In this document: in pieces, positions 1,013-16,821 of the stretch
Layout of the letters: the number at the start of each line of letters is the position of its first letter
Numbering within the stretch: the stretch's first letter is position 1
From: a virus
Strand: one strand, 5' to 3'
Length of the DNA stretch: 24,827 nt
Virus record (IMG/VR): IMGVR_UViG_3300050821_005158
Coordinates: 1 to 24,827 of that record
Program-made: the position numbers and the translations under genes
The notes under the pieces: generated by a model
The model's database searches: none
What the model was told of the DNA's origin: nothing
Seen by the model: the letters and a program-made list of their open reading frames with translations, nothing else

Positions 1013-2671
1013 CTATTGTGCAAAGTCAAAGTCCTCATACCCCTCACCGCTGACTACCTTCTTCATCTCCTTGATTGCTAAGTCCTGAATGTTCTTCTTC
1101 CGACGGAGATTGGCGAGGATGCCAGTGTCCTTCGTTTTGTTCGCTATCAGATCAGTAAACTCGGCAGGCCCCAGCTGCCCCATTCGACTGATCCGTCCCT
1201 CCGATTGCCAACGCTCACGTGCCTTGTAAGAGTTTGTGTAGTAGAAGCCATGTCGACATTTACCCTGTAGGTTGAGACCTACTCCCCCTGACCCTGGCGT
1301 CCCATAGAAGAAACGAATGCCTGAGTCTGGATCAAGCCACGCTTGCTTGCGCTTCTCTCTCTCGTCATCGTCAACGCGACCAGAATACTCTACACCCTCA
1401 TTACCGACGATCTCACGGATGCGGTCTAGGTCATAATGGAAGCGCGCCCAGATGAGAGCCTTCTCTGGCTTCTTGGCTTCGATCAATTGCTCAAGGTTCT
1501 CAGCCCTTGGGTTCTCTCCGATGTCGTGCGTCTTGCCATCGTCATCGACGGTGAAGCCAGAGCATATTTGCTGCATGGCCATGAGCTTATTGCCGATCCG
1601 CGAATTGCGCGACCAACTCCGATCCTTTAGATCAATCTCCAATTCCTTCTTGATCTTGTCATAGAGCACGCGTTGCTTCGGACCCAACTCAAACTTCCAG
1701 CGATGATACTCCGGGGGAAGGACACCCATCTCTTCACGGGTCACTGAGAAGATATGAGGTTGGATCGCTCGATGGAACCGCTCTGTGTCGCGATAGCCAA
1801 CGACATCCCGGTTCATAAAGCCACCCATGATACAAAACTCGCGTCTGAAGGTGGTGACGTATTCGATCCCGAGGATGTCTGGGTTCAACCAGCGCAATTC
1901 GCTCCATAGGTCTTGGAGCTTGCTGGGAACGGGGGAGCCAGTCATCTCAACGCGGAAGCGGCAATCGTCTCTAAACTCCATCGCAGCGACCGTCCGTCCG
2001 GCCTTGTAGTTTTTAATCAGGTCCGCTTCGTCGATGCCGCACATCACCTTGCCCTTGTGCTTGTCGATGAAGGCAGTGACGGCGGCAAAGCCCTTCTTGG
2101 TATCAAGCGCATCAATGTGGATCGAAAGGATGTCCAATCTCCCGGGGCGAGGTTCGGCCAACTCTCGCGCAACGCTCTCATTCTTTCGCCAAACGGTCCC
2201 GTACCATTTGACTTTCTTCGACATGTGCTCCGGAATTTGCTCGTGGATCCATTGGTAGTTGACGCCTTTGGGAGAGATGATTACCGCTCCCGTAATGAGC
2301 TTGTTGACGTATCGAAGCCCCATCAGATAGATGAACATGTAGGACTTCCCTGTCCCAACGTCCATGAAGAAAGCAAAGTGTTGCTGCTTTAGAGACTTCT
2401 TGAGACCCTCCCATTGCTTCTTCTTCGGCTTGCGCCTAGGCTCATATGGGACAGTGTAGGCTATGGGAGCTTCCTCCCCCTCAGGTTCTCGGTTGTCGAA
2501 GATTTCAAACCCAAGCCCTTTGAAGAGATTGAGGTTGTGCGTCGTTGCCTCGAATTGAAGACCCTGAGGGGTCCACCGCTTGCGCCCCTCCAATCGGGGG
2601 AGGACATTGATGCTCACCGCGTCCATTGACACTGGGGCAACGGGACGGTCGGTGCTCACTACAATACGCAT
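1013..2671 (-). CDS. SNF2-like superfamily 2 helicase/ATPase
   Basis: A 552-residue DNA-dependent ATPase. Walker A is DVGTGKS at residues 104-110, the Walker B/DEAD box is IDEAD at 213-217, and motif III is TGS at 244-246. Motif V (GVGLNLQ) is at 463-469, and motif VI (GRISRMGQ, with candidate arginine fingers R493 and R496) is at 492-499. This is the motif order of SNF2/RapA-type SF2 enzymes, which phages commonly encode in replication or recombination modules. The first 90 residues are a phage-type N-terminal extension ending in a basic run (RRKPKKKQ). The start at 2671 has GAGGAG at good spacing. Substrate and polarity cannot be read from sequence. No nuclease domain is fused to it. Confidence 0.93.
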   Translation of the reverse strand: MRIVVSTDRPVAPVSMDAVSINVLPRLEGRKRWTPQGLQFEATTHNLNLFKGLGFEIFDNREPEGEEAPIAYTVPYEPRRKPKKKQWEGLKKSLKQQHFAFFMDVGTGKSYMFIYLMGLRYVNKLITGAVIISPKGVNYQWIHEQIPEHMSKKVKWYGTVWRKNESVARELAEPRPGRLDILSIHIDALDTKKGFAAVTAFIDKHKGKVMCGIDEADLIKNYKAGRTVAAMEFRDDCRFRVEMTGSPVPSKLQDLWSELRWLNPDILGIEYVTTFRREFCIMGGFMNRDVVGYRDTERFHRAIQPHIFSVTREEMGVLPPEYHRWKFELGPKQRVLYDKIKKELEIDLKDRSWSRNSRIGNKLMAMQQICSGFTVDDDGKTHDIGENPRAENLEQLIEAKKPEKALIWARFHYDLDRIREIVGNEGVEYSGRVDDDEREKRKQAWLDPDSGIRFFYGTPGSGGVGLNLQGKCRHGFYYTNSYKARERWQSEGRISRMGQLGPAEFTDLIANKTKDTGILANLRRKKNIQDLAIKEMKKVVSGEGYEDFDFAQ

Positions 2672-3549: not shown

Positions 3550-4632
3550 TTACTTGTCACCTCCCTTCCAATCCTTCCAATTCGGCCCCATCGTCGGAGC
3601 ATGGAAGCGAACCTTGTCCGCCTTGGGATAAGCGTTGCCGAAATGCTCGATGAACTTCTGCTCTTCGATCACCGTCGGAAACTTCTGTCCCTTCGACACG
3701 GGCGAAGGATCGCCTTTGGTGCCGATCAGAACGATGTCTTTGTTCCCCTCGGTGAAAGGATCGACGTGCTTGTTCTTCAAAGTGATCGTAACAAAGCTCT
3801 CAATCGCGTATCCCCCAGCCGTCATGATCTCCACAGCGCGTTGAATATCGTCCGGTCCGCACCTGAACATCCAGACACTGTCCTTCTTCCCGGGAGGGTC
3901 TGCGTCCCTGATCTCTTTGCCGAACGTATGAGCGCTGTAGACTAGATCGCCAAACGTCGCTGGCTTCTCATTCATAGGCTTCGGGGGAGCCTTGGGCTTT
4001 TCTGCATCTGCGCGAGCTTCCTTCAAAGCCTTCTTCTGTTCCTTCGGAGACAACTGAGCGATCTCAGCAGCAGGCTTCGCTCCGATCTCACCGTCAGAGA
4101 CCGCTTGCTTAAGCTCCTCAGTCCCCTTGGCTTCGACAGTACGTGTCCGTTCCAAGGTGGCCCGACCAATGCCGTGCTCCTCAGCAAGCTCAGAAGCAGA
4201 AGCAGTCCCTCCCGGGAGGGACTGATCTTTGGCTGGTATGCCATGCGCAGGATGCTTCTCAAACTTCGCCAAGATCATTCCGATCTGGGCAGGCTCCAGA
4301 TGGCGACGCTTCAGGTTCTTGGAGATTACGAAATGAAGAGCCTGGCTCTTTGTTCCCTTAAACCATTCGACCCCGGAACCATTCACGGGCGGGCGACCGA
4401 GCTCAACAATGGCTTTGTAGCGATGGTATCCCTCCAAGACCGCGCCTTCATAGAGGGTGATGCGATCCTTAAGCCCGTGCTCCTGAATGTCGTCTCTCAA
4501 AGCGTTGTATTGCTCCTCAGACATCGGAGGAATCATCTGTCCATACTCATGCTGAGGAAACTCCATCTCAACTCCCTTGACCGGCTTGCTGGTCTTAGCA
4601 GCAACCTTCGTCACCTTTGCTCGCTTGCTCAT
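3550..4632 (-). CDS. ParB-like N-terminal domain fused to a degenerate MT-A70-like domain
   Basis: A 360-residue protein. The ATG at 4632 is preferred over the in-frame TTG at 4647 because GGAGG lies five bases before the ATG. Residues about 28-85 are a ParB/sulfiredoxin-type domain: MSEEQYNALRDDIQEHG followed by LEGYHRYKA at 66-74. Residues 145-166 form a helix-turn-helix like the ParB spacer. After a Lys/Pro-rich linker (195-225), residues 252-358 follow the C-terminal half of MT-A70 adenine methyltransferases (SVWMFRCGPDD, DIVLIGTKGDP, and an NWKDW ending). The catalytic DPPW tetrad is absent: DPPG at 245-248 is misplaced and lacks the aromatic residue. ParB-methyltransferase fusions are known in phages. 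Here methylation is probably lost, leaving a DNA-binding or decoy function. Confidence 0.85.
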   Translation of the reverse strand: MSKRAKVTKVAAKTSKPVKGVEMEFPQHEYGQMIPPMSEEQYNALRDDIQEHGLKDRITLYEGAVLEGYHRYKAIVELGRPPVNGSGVEWFKGTKSQALHFVISKNLKRRHLEPAQIGMILAKFEKHPAHGIPAKDQSLPGGTASASELAEEHGIGRATLERTRTVEAKGTEELKQAVSDGEIGAKPAAEIAQLSPKEQKKALKEARADAEKPKAPPKPMNEKPATFGDLVYSAHTFGKEIRDADPPGKKDSVWMFRCGPDDIQRAVEIMTAGGYAIESFVTITLKNKHVDPFTEGNKDIVLIGTKGDPSPVSKGQKFPTVIEEQKFIEHFGNAYPKADKVRFHAPTMGPNWKDWKGGDK

Positions 4633-4670
4633 CTTGTCCTCCGTCAATTGAGGGACTATTCCCCCGTCCG

Positions 4671-4758: not shown

Positions 4759-5373
4759 CTACTTCACTCCGACTTTGTCGCCGCTCAGGAACCAGCTGAG
4801 GAGCTTTCCATCGCCGCCTTTGGCGATGTAGTCTTCATATTTGATCCCTGTCTTGCCGGCATTGCTGATGATCACGAAGGCATTGTACCGGCTTGAGCCT
4901 TCCCTCCGTCCGCACTCAGCAGGACCGACCTTGGCGACGAACCTCTTGCCTGCGTGCTCGGATGGCCGTCCCCTCTGGCCGCCTCCATTCTCTCCGTTGG
5001 CTTCTGAAGACTTGCCCTTCTTGGTGGGCTTCTCCGCGACTTCTTCAGCTTCCTTGACTTTCTTCGCCATGTCTGGCTCCTTGAGTTGTAGTGCGGGCAA
5101 TCGCTTGATGGCAGCATTCCAGATCGCGATTGCCGCTTCGATCCGAGTGCTGATTTCCTCTGTGGACTGCCACTTGTAGACGGACCGCACGAGGGAATTG
5201 TAAACCTCAAACATGCCTTCGACAGACATGCGGCGAATATCTGAGGCGATACTCTCCGCACTAGGGTAGAGCATGAAGCTGTTTCCAAAGCCACGTGCGT
5301 CTTCCATCGTAGCAAATAGCACTACCTCAGGGGCATTCTTGCCCGTGAGTCGTATGCCTAGGACTTCACTCAT
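4759..5373 (-). CDS. Phage protein with recurring C-terminal SRYN..WF domain
   Basis: A 204-residue protein. Residues 1-100 are a mixed alpha/beta region with no recognised family. Residues 101-142 are a charged Lys/Glu/Gly-rich linker. Residues about 142-204 contain a domain found twice more in this phage, in the plus-strand genes at 7825 and 8138. The shared pattern is R-x3-GS-x-R-[YW], a hydrophobic run, AG-x2-G, E-[DT]-[YF], a Gly/Lys segment and WF, then a beta-like end (KVGVK here). The domain is probably small and possibly nucleic-acid or protein binding, but no function is known to me. The start at 5373 has GGGAGAAAGG upstream. It is the last gene before the terminator. Confidence 0.82.
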   Translation of the reverse strand: MSEVLGIRLTGKNAPEVVLFATMEDARGFGNSFMLYPSAESIASDIRRMSVEGMFEVYNSLVRSVYKWQSTEEISTRIEAAIAIWNAAIKRLPALQLKEPDMAKKVKEAEEVAEKPTKKGKSSEANGENGGGQRGRPSEHAGKRFVAKVGPAECGRREGSSRYNAFVIISNAGKTGIKYEDYIAKGGDGKLLSWFLSGDKVGVK

Positions 5374-5393
5374 TGCCTTTCTCCCTAGTAATG

Positions 5394-5786
5394 TTACCGT
5401 ACCTTCTTTTCATTGATTGCGGAAGCAATGTCACCGTATTTTGTCGATGAGCATTCTCCCAAGAACGCAAGACCGTGTGGCGTCTTAATTTGGATATACG
5501 CTCCCCCTGGCTCGCGCAAGAAGCGACAAGACACTTTGTCCTTGAGGATAGTCCCGAGCGCAATGAGTTGTTTGTCAGGAACCCCTGTCGGTATCGGGGA
5601 GAGGGACAAGCCCACGATACGAACCAGGACTGTTTGGTTAAGACGTATGGTCCGGGCATCAACAGCCCGGGCTGGAAGAGGCAAGGTGTCATCTGGACTC
5701 CCGGCAAACCCCTCGTCGCATTTGACGAGGGAGAGTGCCAGGCCCAGGCATGCACCGATGGCGATGTATCCCAGGGAGCGCCACAT
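5394..5786 (-). CDS. Membrane-anchored protein with degenerate SNase-like fold
   Basis: A 130-residue protein starting at the ATG at 5786, two bases after the upstream stop (TAG CG ATG). A GTG at 5816 would give ten more residues but has no ribosome site. Residues 4-22 are a hydrophobic signal or anchor segment (SLGYIAIGACLGLALSLV). The rest loosely follows a staphylococcal-nuclease OB-fold: VDARTIRLNQTVLVRIVGLS at 42-61, then LKDKVSCRFL and a GLAFLG strand. Where active SNases carry VDGDT and GIDAPE, this has VDART and GLSLSP, so the acidic catalytic and calcium-binding residues are missing. It is probably exported and non-nucleolytic, for example a host-envelope or superinfection factor. 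The SNase relation is tentative. Confidence 0.7.
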   Translation of the reverse strand: MWRSLGYIAIGACLGLALSLVKCDEGFAGSPDDTLPLPARAVDARTIRLNQTVLVRIVGLSLSPIPTGVPDKQLIALGTILKDKVSCRFLREPGGAYIQIKTPHGLAFLGECSSTKYGDIASAINEKKVR

Positions 5787-5788
5787 CG

Positions 5789-6094
5789 CTAGATGAGCGC
5801 CTTTGTCGCGACCCACTTGAGATCGAATACGCTAGGATCAAACTCTTGCCGCCAAGTATGGATACGGACGTACACCTTGCCGGGAGAGTTGATGTAGGTC
5901 GGAGCCTTGCCGCCCTCAACCGCGCAATTCTGATAGTTGCGGTTGCTTACGAAGTCTCCAACACAGACACGTTCCCTTGTCTTCTGATAGATGAGCGTCA
6001 TATGCTCATCATCAACGGTCTGAAAGACCTTCGCCTTGTCGCGTCGCGCGACATCGGTGTTCATGTCTTTCCGGATCGAATACTTACCACGCAT
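5789..6094 (-). CDS. Small phage protein of unknown function
   Basis: A 101-residue protein. The ATG at 6094 overlaps the upstream stop as TGATG, and GAGG sits eight bases upstream. A TTG at 6097 is also possible and would have tighter spacing to the same GAGG. The sequence is soluble-looking and mixed (VFQTVDDEHMTLIYQ, then YINSPGKVYVRIHTWRQ), consistent with a small beta-rich fold. It contains two cysteines but no metal-binding motif. It belongs to a chain of overlapping small genes from 7028 down to 5394. The family is not recognised. Confidence 0.72.
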   Translation of the reverse strand: MRGKYSIRKDMNTDVARRDKAKVFQTVDDEHMTLIYQKTRERVCVGDFVSNRNYQNCAVEGGKAPTYINSPGKVYVRIHTWRQEFDPSVFDLKWVATKALI

Positions 6095-6342
6095 CAATGT
6101 ATCCTCTTTGGGAACTCAACAACAGTTTCTTCTTGTGCCATTTTCTCAAGCTGTTTGTCGACGATGGCCATACCTGCCTCGGCATCAATCATGATATAGC
6201 CGCATCGCTTCGCAAACAGTCTCGCGGTTTCGATGTAGGTCCAGCTACCGGATAGTAGCATAAAGTGTCCGGTCGGAGACTCAACCCACAGTACATAATG
6301 TCCCTTCTCAAAGGGTACGACGAAGGCACAGAACCTGCTCAT
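6094..6342 (-). CDS. Small phage protein of unknown function
   Basis: An 82-residue protein. The ATG at 6342 overlaps the upstream stop as ATGA and is preceded by GGGAGGGG. The open frame extends to 6435, but that start would sit inside the neighbouring gene without a ribosome site. The sequence starts MSRFCAFVVPFEKGHYVLWV, continues with an alternating beta-like region, then a helix (YIETARLFAKRCGY), and ends in an acidic/basic tail. Both ends overlap neighbouring genes, so it is probably co-translated. No function can be assigned. Confidence 0.72.
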   Translation of the reverse strand: MSRFCAFVVPFEKGHYVLWVESPTGHFMLLSGSWTYIETARLFAKRCGYIMIDAEAGMAIVDKQLEKMAQEETVVEFPKRIH

Positions 6343-6539
6343 GTTAGGTCCCCTCCCATTCGTCGGTACAACCTCACCATCGAAGCTGCGAATGTCGGTT
6401 GGTGAAGTCGAACAAGAGTTGCGATCATGATCCAATCTCTCGCCTCCATCTCAATTTTTGAGATGGGTTCGTCTCCCAGGCAGGCAGCCGCGCAAAACGG
6501 TCGCGCGACCACCTTCCCATTTTTCAGAGTTATGATCAT
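6339..6539 (-). CDS. Small phage protein of unknown function
   Basis: A 66-residue protein starting MIITLKNGKVVARPFC. The start at 6539 follows GAGGAG, which lies at the end of the upstream gene. Its stop overlaps the next ATG. The N-terminal part looks like a beta hairpin, followed by a helical, arginine-containing C-terminus. There is no recognised motif. The overlap on the downstream side and the ribosome site on the upstream side are the main evidence that it is coding. Confidence 0.65.
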   Translation of the reverse strand: MIITLKNGKVVARPFCAAACLGDEPISKIEMEARDWIMIATLVRLHQPTFAASMVRLYRRMGGDLT

Positions 6540-6545
6540 ATGGCG

Positions 6546-6728
6546 CTACTCCTCAAACGTCAGAGTTGCGCTCATATGCTGACCTGGATGATCCGGATAC
6601 TTCTCCTTGGAGATGTAGAGAGTGTTGAGGCTCCCTCCCCCTTCCGGTCCGTACACCCAGTAGTTTTTGCTATCACGATTGTACGTGTAGCTGATTACCA
6701 AGTCCGCCTTTGCTTTGTCTTTAGCCAT
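6546..6728 (-). CDS. Small conserved phage protein
   Basis: A 60-residue protein starting at 6728 with GGAAAGGAAAAGTC before the ATG. The body (ISYTYNRDSKNYWVYG, then LNTLYISKEKYP) ends in a beta strand (MSATLTFEE). I recognise a class of short phage proteins with an initial YTY-R-[DE]-[ST]-K strand, an LYI-K segment and a terminal V/T-rich strand, so it is probably conserved. None of that class has a function I know. The gene is in the early operon between the zinc-ribbon gene and the 66-residue gene. Confidence 0.72.
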   Translation of the reverse strand: MAKDKAKADLVISYTYNRDSKNYWVYGPEGGGSLNTLYISKEKYPDHPGQHMSATLTFEE

Positions 6729-6746
6729 GACTTTTCCTTTCCGTTT

Positions 6747-7028
6747 CTAACCTGCCGTCTTCATCCAGAGGTTCGCGAGGGCACAGCCATCGCTACACTC
6801 TTTCTTTAGATCAAGCTTACAGTAGAGAGGGGACTCACATCCCTTCTGCTTCTTGTACTCCTGACCTAATCCCGTACCCAGCCCGCGTCCAACGGACGCG
6901 AAGCAACGCAGGCACATATTCGACCAAGGTCCCATTCGCGTTACGCCATCGACGAACGTATCCATTCGATCACTGGCGCAGACATCGCAGTGTTGTGGAG
7001 CGAACCCCACCCAATACTTAGCAGCCAT
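6747..7028 (-). CDS. Double zinc-ribbon phage protein
   Basis: A 93-residue protein starting at the ATG at 7028, with GAAAAGGAAAGCCA upstream. A TTG at 7088 would add 20 residues and has a possible GGGAG, but the internal ATG matches the leader style of the next gene. C14-x2-C17 and C39-x2-C42 form a classic zinc ribbon. A second set, C64, C70, C78 and C82, could bind another metal ion. Between them lies GPWSNMCLRCF and then GRGLGTGLGQEY, a combination I recognise from conserved phage zinc-ribbon proteins of unknown role. It is the first gene of the leftward run, so it is likely expressed early. Confidence 0.82.
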   Translation of the reverse strand: MAAKYWVGFAPQHCDVCASDRMDTFVDGVTRMGPWSNMCLRCFASVGRGLGTGLGQEYKKQKGCESPLYCKLDLKKECSDGCALANLWMKTAG

Positions 7029-7102
7029 TGGCTTTCCTTTTCGTTTCTGAACGATACATAGAGCAAGCCGGTAGAGAAACTCAACCAATACTCTCCCGGT
7101 CG

Positions 7103-7120
7103 GAAAGGATACCTCCTTTC
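7103..7120 (-). promoter_or_regulatory. Hairpin containing a strong ribosome-site sequence
   Basis: GAAAGGA, TACC, TCCTTTC is a perfect 7-bp inverted repeat. On the minus strand the stem and loop include AAAGGAGGT, a near-perfect anti-16S complement, yet no start codon lies at proper distance. It is in the leader of the gene at 7028, so it could act as a ribosome standby or sequestered site. Confidence 0.4.
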
Positions 7121-7149
7121 ACCCTACAAGGGAAGTGGGTATTCCGGTA

Positions 7150-7168
7150 TTCGCGTGAGGCACGCGAA
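7150..7168. other. Perfect 8-bp hairpin with 3-base loop
   Basis: TTCGCGTG, AGG, CACGCGAA pair exactly. There is no T-run on either side, so it is not a standard terminator. On the minus strand it would lie in the leader of the 7028 gene. Confidence 0.45.
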
Positions 7169-7201
7169 GTCCCGATCCCTCCGTTCCCCCTTTGTTCCGC
7201 C

Positions 7202-7220
7202 GCACGCTAGGCGTGCCTAG
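7202..7220. other. Two overlapping, mutually exclusive hairpins
   Basis: GCACGC-TAG-GCGTGC (7202-7216) and CTAGGC-GT-GCCTAG (7207-7220) share the same central bases, so only one can form at a time. No T-run follows. Confidence 0.4.
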
Positions 7221-7324
7221 AAACAGCAGGCATTTTGCAAGCTATACCCCTACCTTGCCCCTCCGCGACCCTGCTATGCCAGGCGGATTTCCCGGGGGCA
7301 AACGCCTGCCTTCCGGCCGGTCCG

Positions 7325-7345
7325 CTCCCCCTTCTCCCGGGGGAG
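7325..7345. other. G/C hairpin
   Basis: CTCCCCC, a seven-base loop, and GGGGGAG form a 7-bp inverted repeat in the gene-free region. It has no adjacent T-run and no known role. Confidence 0.35.
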
Positions 7346-7392
7346 GACTACCCAAAACTGCCCTTTTGTTCCGCTAATCGGAAATCAATAAC

Positions 7393-7442
7393 ACTCAGTA
7401 ATTACTGACTGAGTACCTCGTAATGCGTTGAAATCCCTGAGT
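7393..7442. promoter_or_regulatory. Palindromic operator-like site with repeated CTGAGT half-sites
   Basis: TCAGTAATTACTGA (7395-7408) is a perfect 14-bp palindrome. It is nested in ACTCAG (7393-7398) and CTGAGT (7409-7414), an inverted pair; CTGAGT recurs at 7437-7442. The block lies in the most A/T-rich part of the divergent spacer. This is the usual place and form of a repressor operator. Which of the phage's DNA-binding proteins would bind is unknown. Confidence 0.45.
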
Positions 7443-7763
7443 GATAAAAAGAGCTTTCCTTTTGTGTTTGGCGGGCCTATCTTCTTTGTACTGGGGACGG
7501 ACGGTCCGGCCCCTCGGAACGGAGAGAAATCGGAATCAGAGTTTTTTAGAAATCAGGTCATACCGGAAGGCACCTCAGGCTCCCCAAGCCCATCCGGAAA
7601 CGTCGCTAGGCAAGCCCAGTAACCAGTGGGTCCACACCCTGATCTGTTATGCCCTTAGCGCCGGTTTAGTCCCTCCGCTTTATCGCGAACACCACCTGTG
7701 GTCGATAGGAAATCGGGGAGGGATTGATTCGCACACAAGGTGATTTCTGAGGTTCGCTTCCCG

Positions 7764-7808
7764 GTCCGCTTCGGCGGACGGGGGAGCACTCCCCAGCAAT
7801 CATGCTGG
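7764..7808 (+). promoter_or_regulatory. Three adjacent hairpins in the leader of the gene at 7825
   Basis: GTCCGC-TTCG-GCGGAC (7764-7779, stable UUCG loop), GGGGAG-CA-CTCCCC (7781-7794) and CCAGCA-ATCA-TGCTGG (7793-7808) follow one another with perfect 6-bp stems. The second and third share bases 7793-7794, so full formation of one disturbs the other. The ribosome site GAAAGG (7813-7818) comes five bases later. Control of translation or RNA stability is plausible. Confidence 0.55.
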
Positions 7809-7824
7809 AATAGAAAGGCACAAA

Positions 7825-8025
7825 ATGATCAAGGTCAACAAGCTGTTCGCGAACGTCCTGAACTCTGACGAGTTTCGTATCGAGGGGAGCCAGCGTTGGT
7901 TCTCTTTGGAGCTCATTCGGAAGGCTGGCCCGATGGGCCTGTCGCCTGAGACGTTTCTCGCTCAGGGCGGTCAGTGGAAGTTCATCCCGTGGTTCCTGAA
8001 CCGCGCGGAAATTCGCGTTGCGTAA
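7825..8025 (+). CDS. Stand-alone copy of the recurring SRYN..WF domain
   Basis: A 66-residue protein starting at 7825 with GAAAGG seven bases... upstream of CACAAA and the ATG. Nearly the whole chain is the domain also seen at the C-termini of the proteins encoded at 5373 (minus) and 8138 (plus). It reads GSQRWFSLELIRKAG, then GLSPETFLAQGG, then FIPWFLNRAEIRV. This is the most divergent of the three, with R-W in place of R-Y-N. It has no extra basic region, so it represents the minimal domain. It heads the rightward island, opposite in direction to everything else in the window, and has an unusually structured leader. Function unknown. Confidence 0.8.
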   Translation: MIKVNKLFANVLNSDEFRIEGSQRWFSLELIRKAGPMGLSPETFLAQGGQWKFIPWFLNRAEIRVA

Positions 8026-8044
8026 TTCGGTGGTTTGTGGGTGA

Positions 8045-8104
8045 GGGGGAGGACAATCTTCCCCCGATCCTCCAACCCATTGGTTGGGCCGTCCGAACGG
8101 ACGG
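8045..8104 (+). promoter_or_regulatory. Three adjacent hairpins in the leader of the gene at 8138
   Basis: GGGGGAGGA-CAA-TCTTCCCCC (8045-8065, 9 bp with one G-U pair), CCAACC-CATT-GGTTGG (8072-8087) and CCGTCC-GAAC-GGACGG (8089-8104) are consecutive. None has a T-run, so they are not ordinary terminators. Their sequences differ from those of the 7764-7808 cluster, but the architecture, three stems then a GAAAGG site then a gene of the same domain family, is the same. Confidence 0.55.
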
Positions 8105-8137
8105 TTGATGTGGTGTAGAAACGAAAGGATAAACACC

Positions 8138-8500
8138 ATGAGTGCGAAGAAGAAGAAAGCCGCAGGCAAGACGCCTGCGCAGGGGGACGCTCCCAAGGCG
8201 CCAACCACAGCCAAGGGAATGAAGGCTTTAGAGAAAGCCTTGGACAAGGTCGACAAGACCAAGTCCGCTCCCAAGGCTCCCCCGGTCCGCGCGTCAACGC
8301 GCTACCAGGGTAAGACGTTGGTGTTGAGGACGCCACTGGATCAGTCCAGGCGCGTCAGCGGCTCCACTCGGTACAATTCCCTCAAGATCGTCGCGGATGC
8401 GGGACCGAAGGGGATCAAGGCTGAGGACTACCTCAAGGCGAAGGGCACCGCCAAGTACATCACTTGGTTCGCCAATCGCGAGCAAATCGAGATCAAGTAA
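8138..8500 (+). CDS. Basic protein with recurring C-terminal SRYN..WF domain
   Basis: A 120-residue protein starting at 8138 with GAAAGG upstream. The longer frame from 8084 would run through the leader hairpins and is rejected. Residues 1-50 are extremely Lys/Ala/Pro-rich, histone-tail-like and probably disordered. Residues about 57-120 form the recurring domain: QGKTLVLRTPLDQSRR, then GSTRYNSLKIVADAG, then GIKAEDYLKA, then YITWFANREQIEIK. Its closest relative in the window is the C-terminus of the 204-residue protein at 5373. The basic tail makes nucleic-acid binding likely, but that is inference. It is followed directly by a strong terminator. Confidence 0.85.
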   Translation: MSAKKKKAAGKTPAQGDAPKAPTTAKGMKALEKALDKVDKTKSAPKAPPVRASTRYQGKTLVLRTPLDQSRRVSGSTRYNSLKIVADAGPKGIKAEDYLKAKGTAKYITWFANREQIEIK

Positions 8501-8512
8501 TCTCGGACGGAG

Positions 8513-8545
8513 GGGAGAGGCGCAAGCCTCTCCCTTTCTTTTTTT
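8513..8545 (+). terminator. Intrinsic terminator with GCAA tetraloop
   Basis: GGGAGAGGC, loop GCAA, GCCTCTCCC form a perfect 9-bp stem followed by TTTCTTTTTTT. It starts 12 bases after the stop at 8500. The next gene's GGAGG lies directly after the T-run. Confidence 0.95.
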
Positions 8546-9202: not shown

Positions 9203-9661
9203 TCAGGCGATCCCCTCGGACGTTCCACTATCGTTGATGGTGAGTGCCATCATGCGTGGGGGAGAGAAGCTGAAGCCTAGGTGGGTCCATGAATCGTATT
9301 CATAGATGACTTGATCATACATGATCATATCCCGATTGTCCATGATGAGTTGACACACCTCATCGGCCCAGCCATAGTCGGGAATGGTGAAGTCGCAAGC
9401 TAGACCCTGGACGTGCGCAGACGTGTCAGATGATCCAATAGCCCTGTTGAGCTCAACACATCTGTAGCCTGACGAGACGATCAGAGGGACGTTCCCCGCG
9501 AGGGAGCGAACCATCTCAAGTCGGTCGCACAACATGGTTAGGTTCGCGACGATCTCATCGCTGGGCGTGTTGTCGATCCCTTGGCGAACGGCAGTGTCCG
9601 AATATATCATCTCGGCAAGGGTGAAGTTTGGAGTGAGATAGACGGTAGGCTTTGCGGGCAT
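9203..9661 (-). CDS. M15-family peptidase, probable endolysin
   Basis: A 152-residue zinc peptidase predicted to cut peptidoglycan cross-peptides during lysis. The zinc ligands are H83 and D90 in SAHVQGLACDF and H127 in SWTHLGF, the SxHxxGxAxDF...WxH pattern of the VanY-like M15 group. Before them lies SSGYRCVELNRAIG, also typical. The start at 9661 has GGAGGG five bases upstream. A longer frame to 9820 passes through a terminator stem and is rejected. There is no signal peptide, so it should need a holin for release. It is the last gene of the late operon and lies 22 bases beyond an intrinsic terminator, so it is transcribed by read-through or by its own promoter. Confidence 0.92.
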   Translation of the reverse strand: MPAKPTVYLTPNFTLAEMIYSDTAVRQGIDNTPSDEIVANLTMLCDRLEMVRSLAGNVPLIVSSGYRCVELNRAIGSSDTSAHVQGLACDFTIPDYGWADEVCQLIMDNRDMIMYDQVIYEYDSWTHLGFSFSPPRMMALTINDSGTSEGIA

Positions 9662-9682
9662 GATACCCTCCATGCGGTTGAG

Positions 9683-9715
9683 AAAAAAGGGAGAGGGCAC
9701 GCAAGTCCCTCTCCC
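9683..9715 (-). terminator. Intrinsic terminator before the endolysin gene
   Basis: On the minus strand GGGAGAGGG, a nine-base loop and CCCTCTCCC are followed at once by six T. It sits between the structural genes and the endolysin start at 9661. This placement would lower endolysin mRNA relative to tail mRNA unless an antiterminator acts. Confidence 0.88.
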
Positions 9716-9812
9716 TATCGCGCTTGGCCCCACATCAGTCCGCGTCTCGCTCTGGGGGAGACGGAGGATCGCGAACGATGAGCCCCCTCTGACTAAAGGG
9801 ACCAGCTGCCGA

Positions 9813-9893
9813 TCAGCCAAAGATTATAAAGAGGTACAGACACAACAAGAGAGACGCGAGTAGGCAAGCTGTGAGGACCGTCTCAAGTCTCAT
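9813..9893 (-). CDS. 26-residue membrane peptide, possible lysis protein
   Basis: The ATG at 9893 overlaps the stop of the beta-helix gene as ATGA. The frame encodes 26 residues beginning MRLETVLTACLLASLLLCLY and ending LFIIFG, so it is a single hydrophobic helix preceded by a short charged head (R2, E4). It has no convincing ribosome site and would be translated by coupling. Its position just upstream of the endolysin is where holins or other lysis membrane proteins often lie, and no other holin is visible in the window. It is shorter than known holins, so an unrelated leader or accessory peptide, or chance, is possible. Confidence 0.5.
   Translation of the reverse strand: MRLETVLTACLLASLLLCLYLFIIFG
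9823..9851 (-). promoter_or_regulatory. Possible promoter for the endolysin
   Basis: A perfect TATAAT (9828-9823, minus) has a poor -35 (CTCTTG, 9851-9846) 17 bases upstream. The transcript would still meet the terminator at 9683-9715 before the endolysin. The hexamer is also part of the membrane-peptide codons, so it may be chance. Confidence 0.22.
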
Positions 9894-11035: not shown

Positions 11036-11911
11036 TCAGGTCTTGATATAATAATCGAGCAGCAACGTTGGCTGAACATTCGTCACAATGCGCGACGTAC
11101 CATACCCTGAGCCCGTTCCCCCTCGGATATTACCAGCACCAGACGCATTACCGCTAATGCTAACTCCCAATCCGTCCGTCCTAACAACGTGCTGATGCCA
11201 GGAATAAGAATAATTGGGACTTCCGCCATCACCAGTCGTCACACCGTTGAATGATCCGTCAGTTGTCACATTTCCATTAACGCGACCAGACAAGCTCGCC
11301 CCATTAACTGTAACATCAACGGTACCACCCAAAGCGTTAATGTCAACAGTTACTTGCTCTTGCTGCTGACCGCCCCTACCACCCATCGTGTTCCCGTCAG
11401 GAGCCACAGTGAGTTGAGTAAGTCTCCCCGCTCCGATGTCTCGGCCAGCGGCAACGCGGCCACGCATGTCGGGGAGGGCAAATGTCGTTGTGCCATCACC
11501 AGGACCGAAGAGCACTCCAATCGCAGTAAACAAATCCTCATAATCATCTCGCCCAACAAGGCTCCCATCGCAAAGAAGATAGCCATCAGGCGCAGTAAGG
11601 CCACCATACAGAATGATCGCTCCCGGGGGATTGCCGGGATTGCGGACTAGGACAACTTGGATATCGCCAGTCACCGTATTGTAAGAAAGAAATGGGACAT
11701 CGCCCGCAGGGTCACCTAGATAGATCATGACGATCCAATTCTCGGGACCGCCATTGTCATTGATCCACGTCATGCCTGCGACTGCGTAAGGGGGACGGGC
11801 AGGTCCCCTGTGCATCGTGTACAATGAATCGCGCCATCTGTTGAGCGCGTTCGCTAATTGCTCACCGTCCCATACATATGGGTCGATTGTACCGAAATCA
11901 TATTGAGACAT
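11036..11911 (-). CDS. Tail-collar fibre protein (shorter paralogue)
   Basis: A 291-residue protein. Residues 1-55 (MSQYDFGTIDPYVWDG..., RWRDSLYTMHRGPARP, TWINDNGG) are an N-terminal module shared with the product of 12200-13450. Residues about 95-165 are a phage tail-collar domain: PPGAIILYGGLTAPDGYLLCDG, DYEDLFTAIG, FALPDMRGRVAAGRD. The rest is Gly/Asn/Thr-rich beta structure with one HQH, ending in TNVQPTLLLDYYIKT, the typical collar ending. Such proteins are distal fibres or receptor-binding tips. It lies downstream of J and the paralogue. The start at 11911 has GGAGATGG upstream. The shared N-terminus is probably the attachment point to the tail tip. Confidence 0.88.
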   Translation of the reverse strand: MSQYDFGTIDPYVWDGEQLANALNRWRDSLYTMHRGPARPPYAVAGMTWINDNGGPENWIVMIYLGDPAGDVPFLSYNTVTGDIQVVLVRNPGNPPGAIILYGGLTAPDGYLLCDGSLVGRDDYEDLFTAIGVLFGPGDGTTTFALPDMRGRVAAGRDIGAGRLTQLTVAPDGNTMGGRGGQQQEQVTVDINALGGTVDVTVNGASLSGRVNGNVTTDGSFNGVTTGDGGSPNYSYSWHQHVVRTDGLGVSISGNASGAGNIRGGTGSGYGTSRIVTNVQPTLLLDYYIKT

Positions 11912-12199: not shown

Positions 12200-13450
12200 T
12201 CATGTCTTGATGATCTTGTTCATGATGATGGTCGGCTGCGTGTTCTGGTGCGCTAACCCGCTGCCCGACCCGCCCGTGTTGGGCGTATTAGGAACGCCGG
12301 TTGAGCCGCCAAGATCACCCGCAGCATCAGTGCTCCCGCTGGTGTAGCCGAGGTAGCCGTTTTGGTAGGGATTGCCCGGTGTAGACGAGTAACCCCAAGT
12401 GTTTCCGGCGTTCGCTAATAGAATGCTGTAGCCGCTAAGGACGCCATGAGCATGGCCGCCCGTGCTGACGCTGTGCCCGTGGCTCTGCATACTATGGACG
12501 TGCGATGCGACTTGCGTATCGAGCAGGACGTAGGTCTGCGCACCACCCGTCGCGCCCAGCACCGAGCCGTCGATGCCCGCGCCCGCCGTGGTCAAGCGCG
12601 TCGCCATTGCTTCTTTCCCCGCCGTCACGCGCCCGCCGAGATCGGGCACGTTGAAGTGCGTGCCATCGACCGAGCCGTAAGTCGTACCAATAGCGGTGAA
12701 CAAGGTTGGGTAATCAGCACGTAGCACAGACTGACCTTGGCAAAGAAGCCATCCCGGGGGAGCCGCAGCGCCAGCAAAGTCCATAACCATCCCAGAGATG
12801 AAGGAACCTGCTGACGCCAACGCTGCCGCAATCGCAGCATTGACCCAAGCAGTGTTCGGGATAGACGTATCATTATCCGCCACTGGCGGCGCAGTAACGG
12901 TCGGATTGCCCTGTAAGGCAACGTCTGCCTTCAAAGTCGGATTTGGATAGCTGCCGCTAAGATCGCCACCTGCTGCCCCACTCGGAGGGAAGGTTGAGGG
13001 GATAGAACCGGCCAGAGCGGCAACGGCATCATGAACGAATTTGGACGTCGCAATCGAGGTATCGCTATCCCCAACTGCTGGCGTTGGCGCCGTCGGATTA
13101 CCGGTGAGCGCAACGTCCACTTTGATCGTCGGATTTGGAAACGTCCCCGCTAGATCGCCGCCTGCTGGGCCAGACGGGGGAGCGGCATCCGGGATAAACG
13201 CCCCAGATGACATATCAAGACGATAGAGAAGAACATCTGGGATCGAATTGTCCGCAGTGATAACGTAATAGATGCCCCAGACAGGATCGTTTGCATCATC
13301 GATCCATTGCTGGCCCGGGACAACATAGGTCGGTCGGACCGGACCGCGATGCCAAGAGGCAACAGCATCTCGCCATTTGGTCAATTCATCCGCAAGCTCA
13401 ATGCCGCTGGTAGCGTGAGGGTCCATTACCCCAAAGTCATATTGAGACAT
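12200..13450 (-). CDS. Tail-collar fibre protein (longer paralogue, with repeats)
   Basis: A 416-residue protein. The N-terminal module (1-56: MSQYDFGVMDPHA, KWRDAVASWHRGPVRP, WIDDAND) is shared with the shorter paralogue. Two tandem repeats of about 58 residues (91-148 and 155-211) follow, each GGDL-[AS]-G-x-[FY]-PNPT-[IL]-K...DTSI. The collar domain is at about 219-285 (PPGWLLCQGQSVLRADYPTLF, FNVPDLGGRVTAGK). It is followed by His-rich HVH, HGH and HAH motifs, which in other phage fibres chelate metal ions between chains of a trimer. The end (TQPTIIMNKIIKT) is typical. The ATG overlaps the J stop as TAATG, with GGAGG upstream. It is probably a trimeric side fibre. Confidence 0.9.
   Translation of the reverse strand: MSQYDFGVMDPHATSGIELADELTKWRDAVASWHRGPVRPTYVVPGQQWIDDANDPVWGIYYVITADNSIPDVLLYRLDMSSGAFIPDAAPPSGPAGGDLAGTFPNPTIKVDVALTGNPTAPTPAVGDSDTSIATSKFVHDAVAALAGSIPSTFPPSGAAGGDLSGSYPNPTLKADVALQGNPTVTAPPVADNDTSIPNTAWVNAAIAAALASAGSFISGMVMDFAGAAAPPGWLLCQGQSVLRADYPTLFTAIGTTYGSVDGTHFNVPDLGGRVTAGKEAMATRLTTAGAGIDGSVLGATGGAQTYVLLDTQVASHVHSMQSHGHSVSTGGHAHGVLSGYSILLANAGNTWGYSSTPGNPYQNGYLGYTSGSTDAAGDLGGSTGVPNTPNTGGSGSGLAHQNTQPTIIMNKIIKT
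12818..13180 (-). repeat. Tandem repeat pair inside the longer fibre gene
   Basis: Codons 91-148 and 155-211 encode two copies of a module with GGDL, PNPT, DVAL-x-GNPT and DTSI at matching positions. The copies differ at many residues, so the duplication is old. It belongs to a class of linker repeats common in collar-type fibres. Confidence 0.8.
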
Positions 13451-16400
13451 TAACTATGTCCTCCATATCCTTGTACAAAGTAGTCGATGGTACCACCAGC
13501 GTGGACGGCGCCAAGATGGTCTCTACATTCGACCGTGAAATAATCCCTCGTGCTATCAAGTATGACAATATCTCCCCCGGGAGGAATATCCTCACGCACC
13601 GTCAATTGGACCGTCGGAGTAATATGGAACGGCGCAACGTAGGTTACGGTGAGATGACCTGTGTCGTCTAGCGGCACGTTATCCCCGTGCACGGAGCGCA
13701 GAGGTATATCGACAATCGCAGATGCCTCGATCACCCTGATCTCCGTTTGATGATCATAGATCAATCCGATCATCCGCCAACGAAAGGCTTGCGCCGTTAT
13801 GACGACGGACTTGAGCGGAACCCAATCTGTATAAGTCAAGCCATCGCTAGACGTTTGCATCTCGATATAAGCATCCCAATACGGAGAGTTAGACGCGGCC
13901 AGAGGCTTCGCAGACGCGAGGGGAACCCAGCTAATCATCGCATAAGCGAGTGATGGCGTTCCCGCAATCGGATCAATCTCAGCCATCGTCGGCCAGCTGT
14001 CGATATTAACAGGCGTTGCCTGGAACCGTCCCGAAGCCTCAACGTGAGCGGACATCGTAACTGTCGTCGGAATGCCAAGGTCTAAGTCGGTCGCAAAGTA
14101 ATACGTCCCCATCCATGTCGGCACACTATTGATCGCGGTCCCCCGGGGACCGGGCCAAATGTTGGGGTCTGGGGGGAGATAGTCAGGATAGGGTGGCCAC
14201 AACGACAACTCATTATCGGACGCGATGACTGTGAATGCTTCCTTAACTCCATCCCATTCTGGCTCCTCATGATTGTCTAGGACAGTGTGATCATCATTGC
14301 TTTGAGGAATGACCTCAACCTCTGCCCACTCGACACTCTCCTGTCCAAGACTGTCGATTGACTTAATCATATACGTCCCAGCAATGAACGGTGTGCTGAT
14401 CTGGACGGTTTTGTAGCTGATACGCGCAACGCTTGTCGTCGCGAGCGACCAGGCCTCATTGATGGTTCGTTTCGTAAATTTGATCCAATAATAGTCAACG
14501 TCAATCTCGCCTGTTGGCGTCCATTGGAGCGTCAAGAGGTTCCCCGATTGCGGCGAAGCATGGAAGTGTAGGGGAGGCAAAGGTCTTGCTGTCAAGCCAA
14601 TCGGAGTAAAGATGTAGACCAACGGTGGCGAACGTCTGCCAATTCCGTCAAAGGCACGGATGTAAACCGTCCATTCGCCCTGGGACATATCAGGTACGTC
14701 TTGTGAGACGCCAACAACTTGTCTGAAGATATGATAATCGCCGCGCGGTCCCGACATCTCCATTTGATAGTATTGAATGCGAGGATCGTTTGGAGCGGTC
14801 CAAGAAATGATGACGCCAAATTGGACTTTACCTGCCCCGTCTCGATAGATGTACTCAACCTTGCTCGGATTGGTTGGGGATGGGATCGGTCCGGACGGGA
14901 TGAGGCTAAACCGGGGGAGAGGGATCAGCCAACCATTGTCGATGTAGTCCCATTTCTCAATATGGTACTCAGTAGCCAAGACCTTGTATTGGCCAGTCTG
15001 TTGTTCTGTAACAGTATGGACGCGCCACAATGTCGGCTCAACTTGACCCGCGCGAGCGAGCCACATAGAGCCTGGCGTAATTCCTACTGGCTTATTACCA
15101 ATCACAATTTGATTGTTGGGAAGAATTTGATAGACGGGGCATTCAACTACGTATGGAGCTTCGCCTTCAGCCGCCGATCCAATCGTAATGAATACCCACC
15201 ATTGACCGGTCGCGAGAGGATCGACATCTTGGTCAAGGGTTATCGTATCTGTACCATTATCCTCCATAAGTCGCCCAGCCAACCTTGCCCCAGAGCGAGA
15301 CGGATCGTCAATCGCAATAAGCATCCCGGGGCGAACGTCCGCATTCTCAAGGCCAGTGACAAACGAGACAACCTCAGTCTCAAATTGGCTCGTATAAATC
15401 AGCCAACGTCCAACGCGGATCGCTTGTCCCCTAGACGTACAGCCAAAGGCAGTTATGCTTCCTTGGCGATAGCCGAATTGAGCGACAAGTTGAGGGTCTT
15501 GTACAAGCTCCACCGCTGGCTTGTAGTCGTCCAGTGGATCGTTCCAAGTAACAGCAACGGCTGTCCAGCGCGAGCGATAGTCAGCGCCAGTATAGTCAAA
15601 TAGTCCGCTCACAACATCTGCCGGTCCGAACAACCTCTCAGGATCAGTCAGCCGTCGGTCTTGGACAAGATGAATCGTTCCATTTGCAAAGTACAACGTC
15701 GCAAGCATCGCAGAGGCGACAGCGGTGAGAGTACTCCAAGCATCTTGCTGCGTATTGAGGACAGTGTTGATCGTCCAACGAACCTCCGTCCCTCCCTTTC
15801 CATCCGGAACGCCTTGGTCGCAAAATATGGCAGCCTCATAGAAGCCCCATTTGTCGACAATTGATGCATCAATCGCGTCCCCGATCCCATAGCGCGTATT
15901 CGTCAATAACGCATAAAGGATCCACGCTGGATTGTTAGTCCATTGCGTATAGAACGATCCATCCCAATCTCCATAGTATCCATGGTTCAAACCATTATAG
16001 TTGGTCGGTATCTGAACCATGATGCCATCGATTAGAAAAGCCCGTTGTGGTACGCTTTGAAAATCCCGAGCGTCAACAGCCATAGAAATAACGCAAGTGT
16101 CATCATAAGACAGAAGGTCGTCAAAAATTTCTGTATAAGATGACCAGTACAAATCGGACGGCGTATCAGATGTAGGAGGTGGCTGAATATTCTCCACACG
16201 TATCTGAATCGAAGAAGTAGCAGGAGGCAACGTAATGCGAACCGCGCGCTGATAAGGGGAGGTTGTCTTTCCGTAAATCTGTTCAGTGACGACATTGGTC
16301 CAGGTTCCCCCGTCAACGCTAATATCAAAAGCATAGGTCACGCTCGCGGCGACAACGTCACCATTAGACATGTTCGTGAACAATGCTGGGATTTGTAGAA

Positions 16401-16821
16401 CGTATCTGACTTCGTTGACCGTTGGCCCGCTAAGGTTCCGAACGACAGGGGTAAATGAGAAGCATTGCACGCCAACAGAAAAGACGGACTCAACGTCGGA
16501 GTATCCATACAATGGGTCTTGGAACGGATAGCCATATCTGAAGTCGCCATCCTTGATACCAAATTGAAAATTGCCAGCAGCATCTGCGATAGGTGTCCCA
16601 TCCAAGAAGATTGAATTCCAAAACGGTCCCCCTAGGGTCGTAGTGTGCATTCCATAGACAACACCCTCACTGATAACCTCCAAGATGCGAGCGGTTGCGA
16701 AGCTCCGAAGGGTATTTGGATAGTCAACAGGCGTGTGAGGTGTGGGCTGTGACGCGGACCCACCGCCTCCCTTGCCTCCGCCTTTGGAAGCAATACGCCT
16801 AACTTGGATAAAGTCTTCCAT
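13450..16821 (-). CDS. J: Tail tip attachment / host specificity protein J
   Basis: A 1123-residue protein of the lambda gpJ type, which forms the central fibre and baseplate hub and contacts the receptor. Residues 11-22 are a Gly-rich segment (GGGKGGGGS). They are followed by the conserved entry ATARILEVISEGVVYG at about 44-59, where gpJ proteins have LISEGEI-like text. The middle (about 250-640) carries hub features (AFLIDGIMVQIPTNYN, NPAWILYALLTNTRYGIG, VTWNDPLDDYK). Two fibronectin-III-like domains follow at about 650-740 and 747-830. The C-terminal 250 residues are probably receptor-facing and the most variable. It begins in the TAATG overlap with gene I and ends in the TAATG overlap with the fibre gene. 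Length is similar to lambda J (1132). Confidence 0.95.
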   Translation of the reverse strand: MEDFIQVRRIASKGGGKGGGGSASQPTPHTPVDYPNTLRSFATARILEVISEGVVYGMHTTTLGGPFWNSIFLDGTPIADAAGNFQFGIKDGDFRYGYPFQDPLYGYSDVESVFSVGVQCFSFTPVVRNLSGPTVNEVRYVLQIPALFTNMSNGDVVAASVTYAFDISVDGGTWTNVVTEQIYGKTTSPYQRAVRITLPPATSSIQIRVENIQPPPTSDTPSDLYWSSYTEIFDDLLSYDDTCVISMAVDARDFQSVPQRAFLIDGIMVQIPTNYNGLNHGYYGDWDGSFYTQWTNNPAWILYALLTNTRYGIGDAIDASIVDKWGFYEAAIFCDQGVPDGKGGTEVRWTINTVLNTQQDAWSTLTAVASAMLATLYFANGTIHLVQDRRLTDPERLFGPADVVSGLFDYTGADYRSRWTAVAVTWNDPLDDYKPAVELVQDPQLVAQFGYRQGSITAFGCTSRGQAIRVGRWLIYTSQFETEVVSFVTGLENADVRPGMLIAIDDPSRSGARLAGRLMEDNGTDTITLDQDVDPLATGQWWVFITIGSAAEGEAPYVVECPVYQILPNNQIVIGNKPVGITPGSMWLARAGQVEPTLWRVHTVTEQQTGQYKVLATEYHIEKWDYIDNGWLIPLPRFSLIPSGPIPSPTNPSKVEYIYRDGAGKVQFGVIISWTAPNDPRIQYYQMEMSGPRGDYHIFRQVVGVSQDVPDMSQGEWTVYIRAFDGIGRRSPPLVYIFTPIGLTARPLPPLHFHASPQSGNLLTLQWTPTGEIDVDYYWIKFTKRTINEAWSLATTSVARISYKTVQISTPFIAGTYMIKSIDSLGQESVEWAEVEVIPQSNDDHTVLDNHEEPEWDGVKEAFTVIASDNELSLWPPYPDYLPPDPNIWPGPRGTAINSVPTWMGTYYFATDLDLGIPTTVTMSAHVEASGRFQATPVNIDSWPTMAEIDPIAGTPSLAYAMISWVPLASAKPLAASNSPYWDAYIEMQTSSDGLTYTDWVPLKSVVITAQAFRWRMIGLIYDHQTEIRVIEASAIVDIPLRSVHGDNVPLDDTGHLTVTYVAPFHITPTVQLTVREDIPPGGDIVILDSTRDYFTVECRDHLGAVHAGGTIDYFVQGYGGHS

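Follow-up and report, generated by a model that had tools for sequence, protein, structure and literature searches.

A Predicted Winged-Helix Module Encoded Three Times in One Phage and Widespread in Uncultivated Phages

Three module-bearing proteins

The subject of this analysis is a small protein module encoded three times in a 24,827-base IMG/VR virus record (IMGVR_UViG_3300050821_005158), the whole of which is referred to here as the window. The three proteins that carry the module, A, B, and C, have a common domain of ~50–65 amino acids (aa) set in different N-terminal contexts. Protein A (204 aa; positions 4759–5373, minus strand) is made up of a folded N-terminal domain, a linker, and a C-terminal winged-helix-like module, as judged from its open reading frame (ORF) and an AlphaFold model (mfb78f3b5f855). 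The N-terminal domain (residues ~1–95; positions 5089–5373, minus strand) has an alpha/beta start followed by a helix pair, with YN...KF.DR.tA..R as its family motif, and the module copy occupies residues 141–204 (positions 4762–4953, minus strand). Directly ahead of the module is RGRP (residues 134–137; positions 4963–4974, minus strand), which resembles an AT-hook core by sequence reading. Protein B (66 aa; positions 7825–8025, plus strand) is a bare module, as seen from its ORF, its AlphaFold model, and a profile match. Protein C (120 aa, counted with the ATG at 8138 as start; positions 8138–8500, plus strand), recognized from its ORF and by profile, joins a basic tail of Lys/Ala/Pro-rich composition (residues 1–56; positions 8138–8305) to a module copy detected by both BLASTP and profile (residues 57–120; positions 8306–8497). 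Sequence reading also places a purine-rich AAAGG-type stretch upstream of all three start codons. A terminator-like hairpin (13-pair stem, then a run of T), a consensus match only, lies directly 3′ of C (positions 8509–8538, plus strand).

The similarity among A, B, and C is real. In BLASTP comparisons, B and C match at 8e-15 (42% over 48), A and C at 9e-15 (30% over 107, an aligned stretch that takes in the Lys-rich linkers), and A and B at 8e-11 (33% over 60). Smith-Waterman comparisons limited to the domain and set against 2000 shuffles each give z scores of 17.8 (A/B), 22.4 (A/C), and 23.0 (B/C). Furthermore, a profile built only from the copies of other phages, with no rows from the window, was run against 589 window ORFs and recovers A (E 6.5e-11), C (E 4.4e-6), and B (E 3.4e-5), with no others below E 1. 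The profile scores of the three proteins are 19.2–37.5 bits, compared with 10.0 bits for the best of 3000 shuffles. No fourth module copy was found with this profile among the 589 ORFs, because the next-best ORF scores only E 1.2. The observation at the core of a preliminary description of the locus, that the C-termini of A and C and the whole of B share one domain, is confirmed by these results.

Predicted fold of the module

AlphaFold was run with family alignments on A and B. The model of A has a mean predicted local distance difference test (pLDDT) score of 82, with values of ~90 over most of the length of the N-terminal domain and 93–97 in the module. The module of A is predicted to contain a strand (144–147), three helices (161–171, 179–184, and 189–197), and a second strand (201–203). 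The model of B (mean pLDDT 90.1, predicted TM-score 0.77) likewise contains a strand (7–9), three helices (23–37, 41–46, and 51–59), and a final strand (63–65). The two models were compared by the order and position of their elements. Both have a strand-helix-helix-helix-strand order with a short extended segment after the first helix, and from the first helix on the element starts match at a constant offset of 138 (161/179/189/201 in A; 23/41/51/63 in B), although the two predictions are partly dependent because their alignments share rows. Each predicted model thereby shows the three-helix core, the helix-turn-helix (HTH) pair, and the C-terminal strand or wing that characterize a winged helix, with pLDDT values of 93–97 across the core.

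The top VIA-align matches of both models are winged-helix domains. RPC39 (2yu3) aligns with A (Z 7.8, root-mean-square deviation (rmsd) 4.8, 73 residues aligned) and with B (Z 7.7, rmsd 3.6, 65 aligned). The model of A also matches the CAP DNA-binding domain (Z 3.4, rmsd 2.0, 45 aligned), and that of B matches the MetAP2 insert (Z 7.4, rmsd 2.5, 64 aligned) and PriA (Z 5.4, rmsd 3.1, 62 aligned). Based on these modest scores and the order of elements, a winged-helix arrangement is the best reading of the module.

The models bear on the preliminary description in several ways. Its division of the N-terminal contexts into folded (A), absent (B), and Lys/Ala/Pro-rich (C) is borne out, and the structure prediction that it had suggested as a check yields the common element order at offset 138. 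In contrast, the hydrophobic strand that it had placed between GSxRY and AGxxG is predicted to be a helix instead (161–171 in A, 23–37 in B).

The wider family and its setting

The first IMG/VR search with protein A returned one relative, and iterated searches then returned five loci, followed by 72, 78, and 79; the best 80 of 118 candidates were taken in the last round. Iterated hidden Markov model (HMM) searches over all ORFs of these loci converge at 260 domain matches in 256 ORFs, which correspond to 172 unique proteins and 223 loci, some of which overlap on one contig, so that there are fewer contigs than loci. The canonical module signature is NPRREGTxGxxSxxIIxxxPGIxYEDYIxxGGRxxDLxWDxxHxxVxV, a second arm of the family reads NPKRxGSxAxxRFALYxxGMTV, and the family pattern is given as NP[RK]R...G[IM]xYExY...GGRxxDLxWD. 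The window copies are classified by profile as divergent members of this family. The NPRR and DLxWD signatures are gone from them (GRREGS, SRRVSGS, and FRIEGS; LSWF, ITWF, and IPWF); these signatures are typical of the family, but the profile does not require them. The spacing is preserved, as are the R, G, G, E, G, and W positions.

The module is not private to the window phage and is common in environmental phages, a correction to the preliminary description, which presents a three-member family of one phage. Whole-record searches find 1 to 4 copies per phage, with three copies in G004, G008, G009, G010, G011, G014, and G018 and four in G006. Many phages thus carry 2–4 copies, in the same contexts as the window. 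In one locus (L048), four module genes lie inside ~5 kb.

The module has no above-chance match in Pfam, PHROGs, or NCBIfam (the last searched with A-type members). A match to phrog_7790 was set aside as weak, made by few members only, and lying partly on the linker. Among 50,697 phage records of INPHARED, tblastn with short queries from several subfamilies, an insensitive search made without a positive control, gave no significant match; an Aeromonas AsXd-1 match was examined and rejected as one of the chance matches. A profile search of eight phage records, seven picked for a related SNF2 helicase and the eighth being YuA, did not find the module, and translated searches of plasmids with short subfamily queries, again without a positive control, gave no significant match. 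Loci L086–L089 from Bacteroidales encode an outer-membrane-type protein of 840–880 aa with no match to the profile and were discarded. For the most part, the family seems restricted to uncultivated phages; for isolate phages, rarity rather than absence is the appropriate statement because the INPHARED searches had no positive control. Taken together, the module represents a sizeable phage family, undescribed in Pfam, PHROGs, and NCBIfam, with a clear predicted fold.

The origin of the three copies was examined with a tree of 83 domains, in which most inner forks are open, built from a short alignment of 69 columns. The three copies of the window fall into a single clade (support 98/96), among the few starred in the tree, and B sits on a long branch. 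This grouping indicates that the window lineage duplicated its own module copy, so that one phage has multiplied the module within itself. Copies of other phages group differently: L065, L103, and L104 have short proteins that cluster with one another across phages, separately from the long proteins encoded by those phages, which indicates that some multi-copy phages hold old subfamilies. The preliminary description had spoken of ongoing use of one module; that the copies are three diverged members of one family stands, and the wording is better replaced by lineage-specific duplication.

All three N-terminal contexts of the window recur across other phages. An HMM of the A-type N-terminal domain, which captures the YN...KF.DR.tA..R helix pair, matches 86 ORFs including window A, and the module is present in 86/86, a count made on loci fetched via the module, in which module-free occurrences would be invisible. 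Basic Lys/Ala/Pro-rich tails like that of C occur in L056, L060, L021, L079, and L082, and nearly bare modules occur in L127 (76 aa), L128, L132, L123, and L156. In L034 the module is fused to HTH_24 (8.8e-4, just under the cut-off of Pfam), weak MarR and HTH_27 matches stand beside the module in L066 and L105, and a 689-aa protein (L070:3657–5723) carries two modules in tandem.

The region ahead of the module tends to be basic. The 45 aa upstream of it have a charge of +0.13 per residue, compared with +0.02 (sd 0.09) in other conserved ORFs, and the linkers and tails of the family are basic, with a median isoelectric point (pI) of 9.8. In the window, the tail of C (residues 1–56) has a net charge of +11, the modules of A and C have net charges of +6 and +7, and the whole of B has +3. 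In one arm, 21/95 proteins have the motif [RK]GRx[SA] in the 45 aa that precede the module, compared with 0.8 in shuffles; in the other arm the count is 0/56. An AT-hook reading of RGRP was rejected as a defining feature of the family because the motif is absent from one arm.

The genes near the module were counted in the first ~150 loci, and these counts are not independent because many loci are near-copies of one another. The commonest neighbor is a flavoprotein-like protein without a Pfam match (77 loci), followed by ThyX (70 loci), a UvrD-like helicase directly upstream of the module gene (62 loci), and an SNF2 helicase ~1.2 kb downstream of it (61 loci). PNKP-type phosphatase and a Pam3 gp34-like protein are each found in 58 loci, AEP-type primase in 47, DnaQ-like exonuclease in 41, Pol III alpha in 40, and a DUF932 protein in 35. 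Based on these neighbors, the module is placed in a DNA-metabolism region. The window shares the gene cluster common to the 61 loci, as an SNF2-type helicase (positions 1013–2671, minus strand; PF00176, 5.2e-14) is encoded farther along the gene run of A.

Directly downstream of A, positions 3550–4647 (minus strand) encode a protein of 359–365 aa without a Pfam match, whose N-terminal domain looks ParB-type by eye (LEGYHRYKA). Beyond the module genes, a Peptidase M15 family protein that is probably an endolysin is encoded at positions 9203–9820 (minus strand; PF08291, 2.7e-20). Two paralogous tail-type proteins (positions 11036–11911 and 12200–13450, minus strand) both begin MSQYDFG, have a collar-like C-terminal part in common, and fall in one BLAST cluster. 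A Lambda gpJ-type tail tip protein is encoded at positions 13450–16821 (minus strand; PF24801, 4.1e-32; PF13550, 2e-20).

Of the two divergent gene runs, the leftward one includes A and the rightward one includes B and C; a spacer of ~0.7 kb (positions 7089–7824) separates them. Overlapping AT-rich palindromes (CAGTAATTACTG) lie in this spacer at positions 7390–7417 and are not beyond chance. The arrangement raises the idea, in line with the regulation of the spacer suggested in the preliminary description, that the three proteins are conventional transcription regulators that bind sites in the spacer and control the early genes of both runs. Such a role would fit the winged-helix-like predicted fold, the divergence of the runs over so short a distance, and the presence of an AT-rich palindrome. 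However, the palindrome is within chance and promoter-like sites in the spacer are no commoner than in shuffles. Additionally, module copies on both strands are rare, being found in the window and G018, and the copies of relatives within a single locus share one strand. Regulation of the spacer is consequently regarded as very improbable.

Possible functions and known systems

Proteins A, B, and C are read here as DNA-binding winged-helix modules whose roles would depend on their tethers, a reading that we hold with about even confidence. DNA binding is favored because of the basic upstream regions, the RGRx[SA] motif, the HTH fusions, and the replication setting. Nucleic-acid binding, the other function raised in the preliminary description, remains the most likely role on the strength of the predicted winged helix, the basic tails, the replication neighborhood, and the HTH fusions, and its interpretation is in this respect partly supported. 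It is proposed that the module binds DNA of the phage itself, or DNA engaged by the phage replication machinery, and acts there while phage DNA is replicated or expressed, with the N-terminal part determining the mode of action. In A, the folded N-terminal domain on its linker may tether or oligomerize the module; in C, the basic Lys/Ala/Pro tail would increase affinity for DNA in a non-specific manner; and B, as a bare module, may compete with or modulate A and C.

Several points weigh against this assignment. With Foldseek, neither the A nor the B model matched a PDB entry at E ≤ 0.001, and structural Z scores under 8 may reflect just a common arrangement. Winged helices bind proteins and RNA as well as DNA. 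Across the family the module is neutral on average (median net charge 0, pI 7.1), and its last helix has conserved acidic residues (DLxWD) that are odd in a DNA-reading helix and have been lost in the window copies.

Some of these points would fit a module that is instead a protein–protein adaptor and docks on the UvrD-like or SNF2 helicase, the polymerase, or host RNA polymerase, with the different N-termini bringing different cargoes. A protein-docking winged helix is the main rival to DNA binding, although we consider it doubtful. The neutral module with its conserved acidic and aromatic residues, the helicase genes that adjoin the module genes, and the fact that neither RPC39 nor the MetAP2 insert, the top matches by structure, is a classical operator-reading domain are all consistent with docking. 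In contrast, the [RK]GRx[SA] motif beside the module, the basic tails, the HTH domain fusions in relatives, and the basic character of the window copies point to DNA.

For either function, the family offers a direct route to experiment, as the domain boundary, a confident model, a natural bare version of 66 aa, and natural tether variants are at hand. Well over 100 distinct proteins of uncultivated phages carry the module beside helicases, polymerase, and primase, and its function, once tested, would allow the naming of many phage genes now listed as hypothetical.

Among catalogued families, the closest likeness is to phrog_4730 (function unknown), which matches the N-terminal part of A-type relatives (24/34 A-type proteins, best E 1.1e-10) and differs in that the C-terminal module is unmatched. 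In L006 the phrog_4730 match spans the N-terminal domain and linker, with the module outside it. Window protein A has no phrog_4730 match at E 0.01. The RPC39 winged-helix domain and the MetAP2 insert are the best structural matches of the models, but with Z of only 7–8, 8–20% identity, and unrelated functions, they suggest a common arrangement rather than kinship. Among predicted viral structures, the best match of the B model is Gp18 of the Alphaproteobacteria phage PhiJL001 (BFVD Q5DN87; probability 0.99, TM 0.69, 66 columns, rmsd 2.8), although the E value is only 0.051 and the identity 18%.

The Lsr2-type domain is one that we take to differ from the phage module. Phage-encoded Lsr2-type regulators exist, and the notion that phages carry nucleoid-type DNA binders is well established (PMC8612146). 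In the H-NS-like bridging proteins, a flexible linker joins an N-terminal domain to a C-terminal DNA-binding domain, and paralogues and short derivatives act as modulators; the C-terminal domain of Rok is a winged helix preceded by a neutral Q-linker, and the linkers of H-NS, MvaT, and Lsr2 are basic (PMC6936261). Similar to these proteins, A has an N-terminal domain, a linker that follows it, and a predicted C-terminal winged helix, a likeness that holds for A only, and paralogues and short versions occur on both sides. The module proteins could thus be chromatin- or silencing-type proteins proper, in which A oligomerizes and bridges DNA as H-NS, Lsr2, and Rok do, C coats DNA, and B is a truncated antagonist, together organizing phage DNA or countering host silencing. 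The order of parts fits the description of the group (PMC6936261), of which truncated modulators and paralogues are typical. However, module profiles A4, A7, and A9 have no significant match to a solved chain (a search run without Rok as a positive control), the linkers of the family are basic where the Q-linker of Rok is neutral, and structural comparison matched the N-terminal domain of A to no known oligomerization domain. Rok is not on the structural match lists of the A and B models, which is no bar to kinship. Furthermore, the module genes number 1–4 per phage and are located in replication loci. Full membership in the H-NS-like group is therefore judged unlikely, and the likeness to Rok and H-NS serves as a working analogy. 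Within that analogy, and returning to the favored DNA-binding reading, we suggest with considerable reserve that phages may carry a kit of multi-copy winged-helix modules on varied tethers that organizes DNA and is tied to the replication machinery, a phage-specific counterpart of H-NS and Rok with full-length, tailed, and truncated versions.

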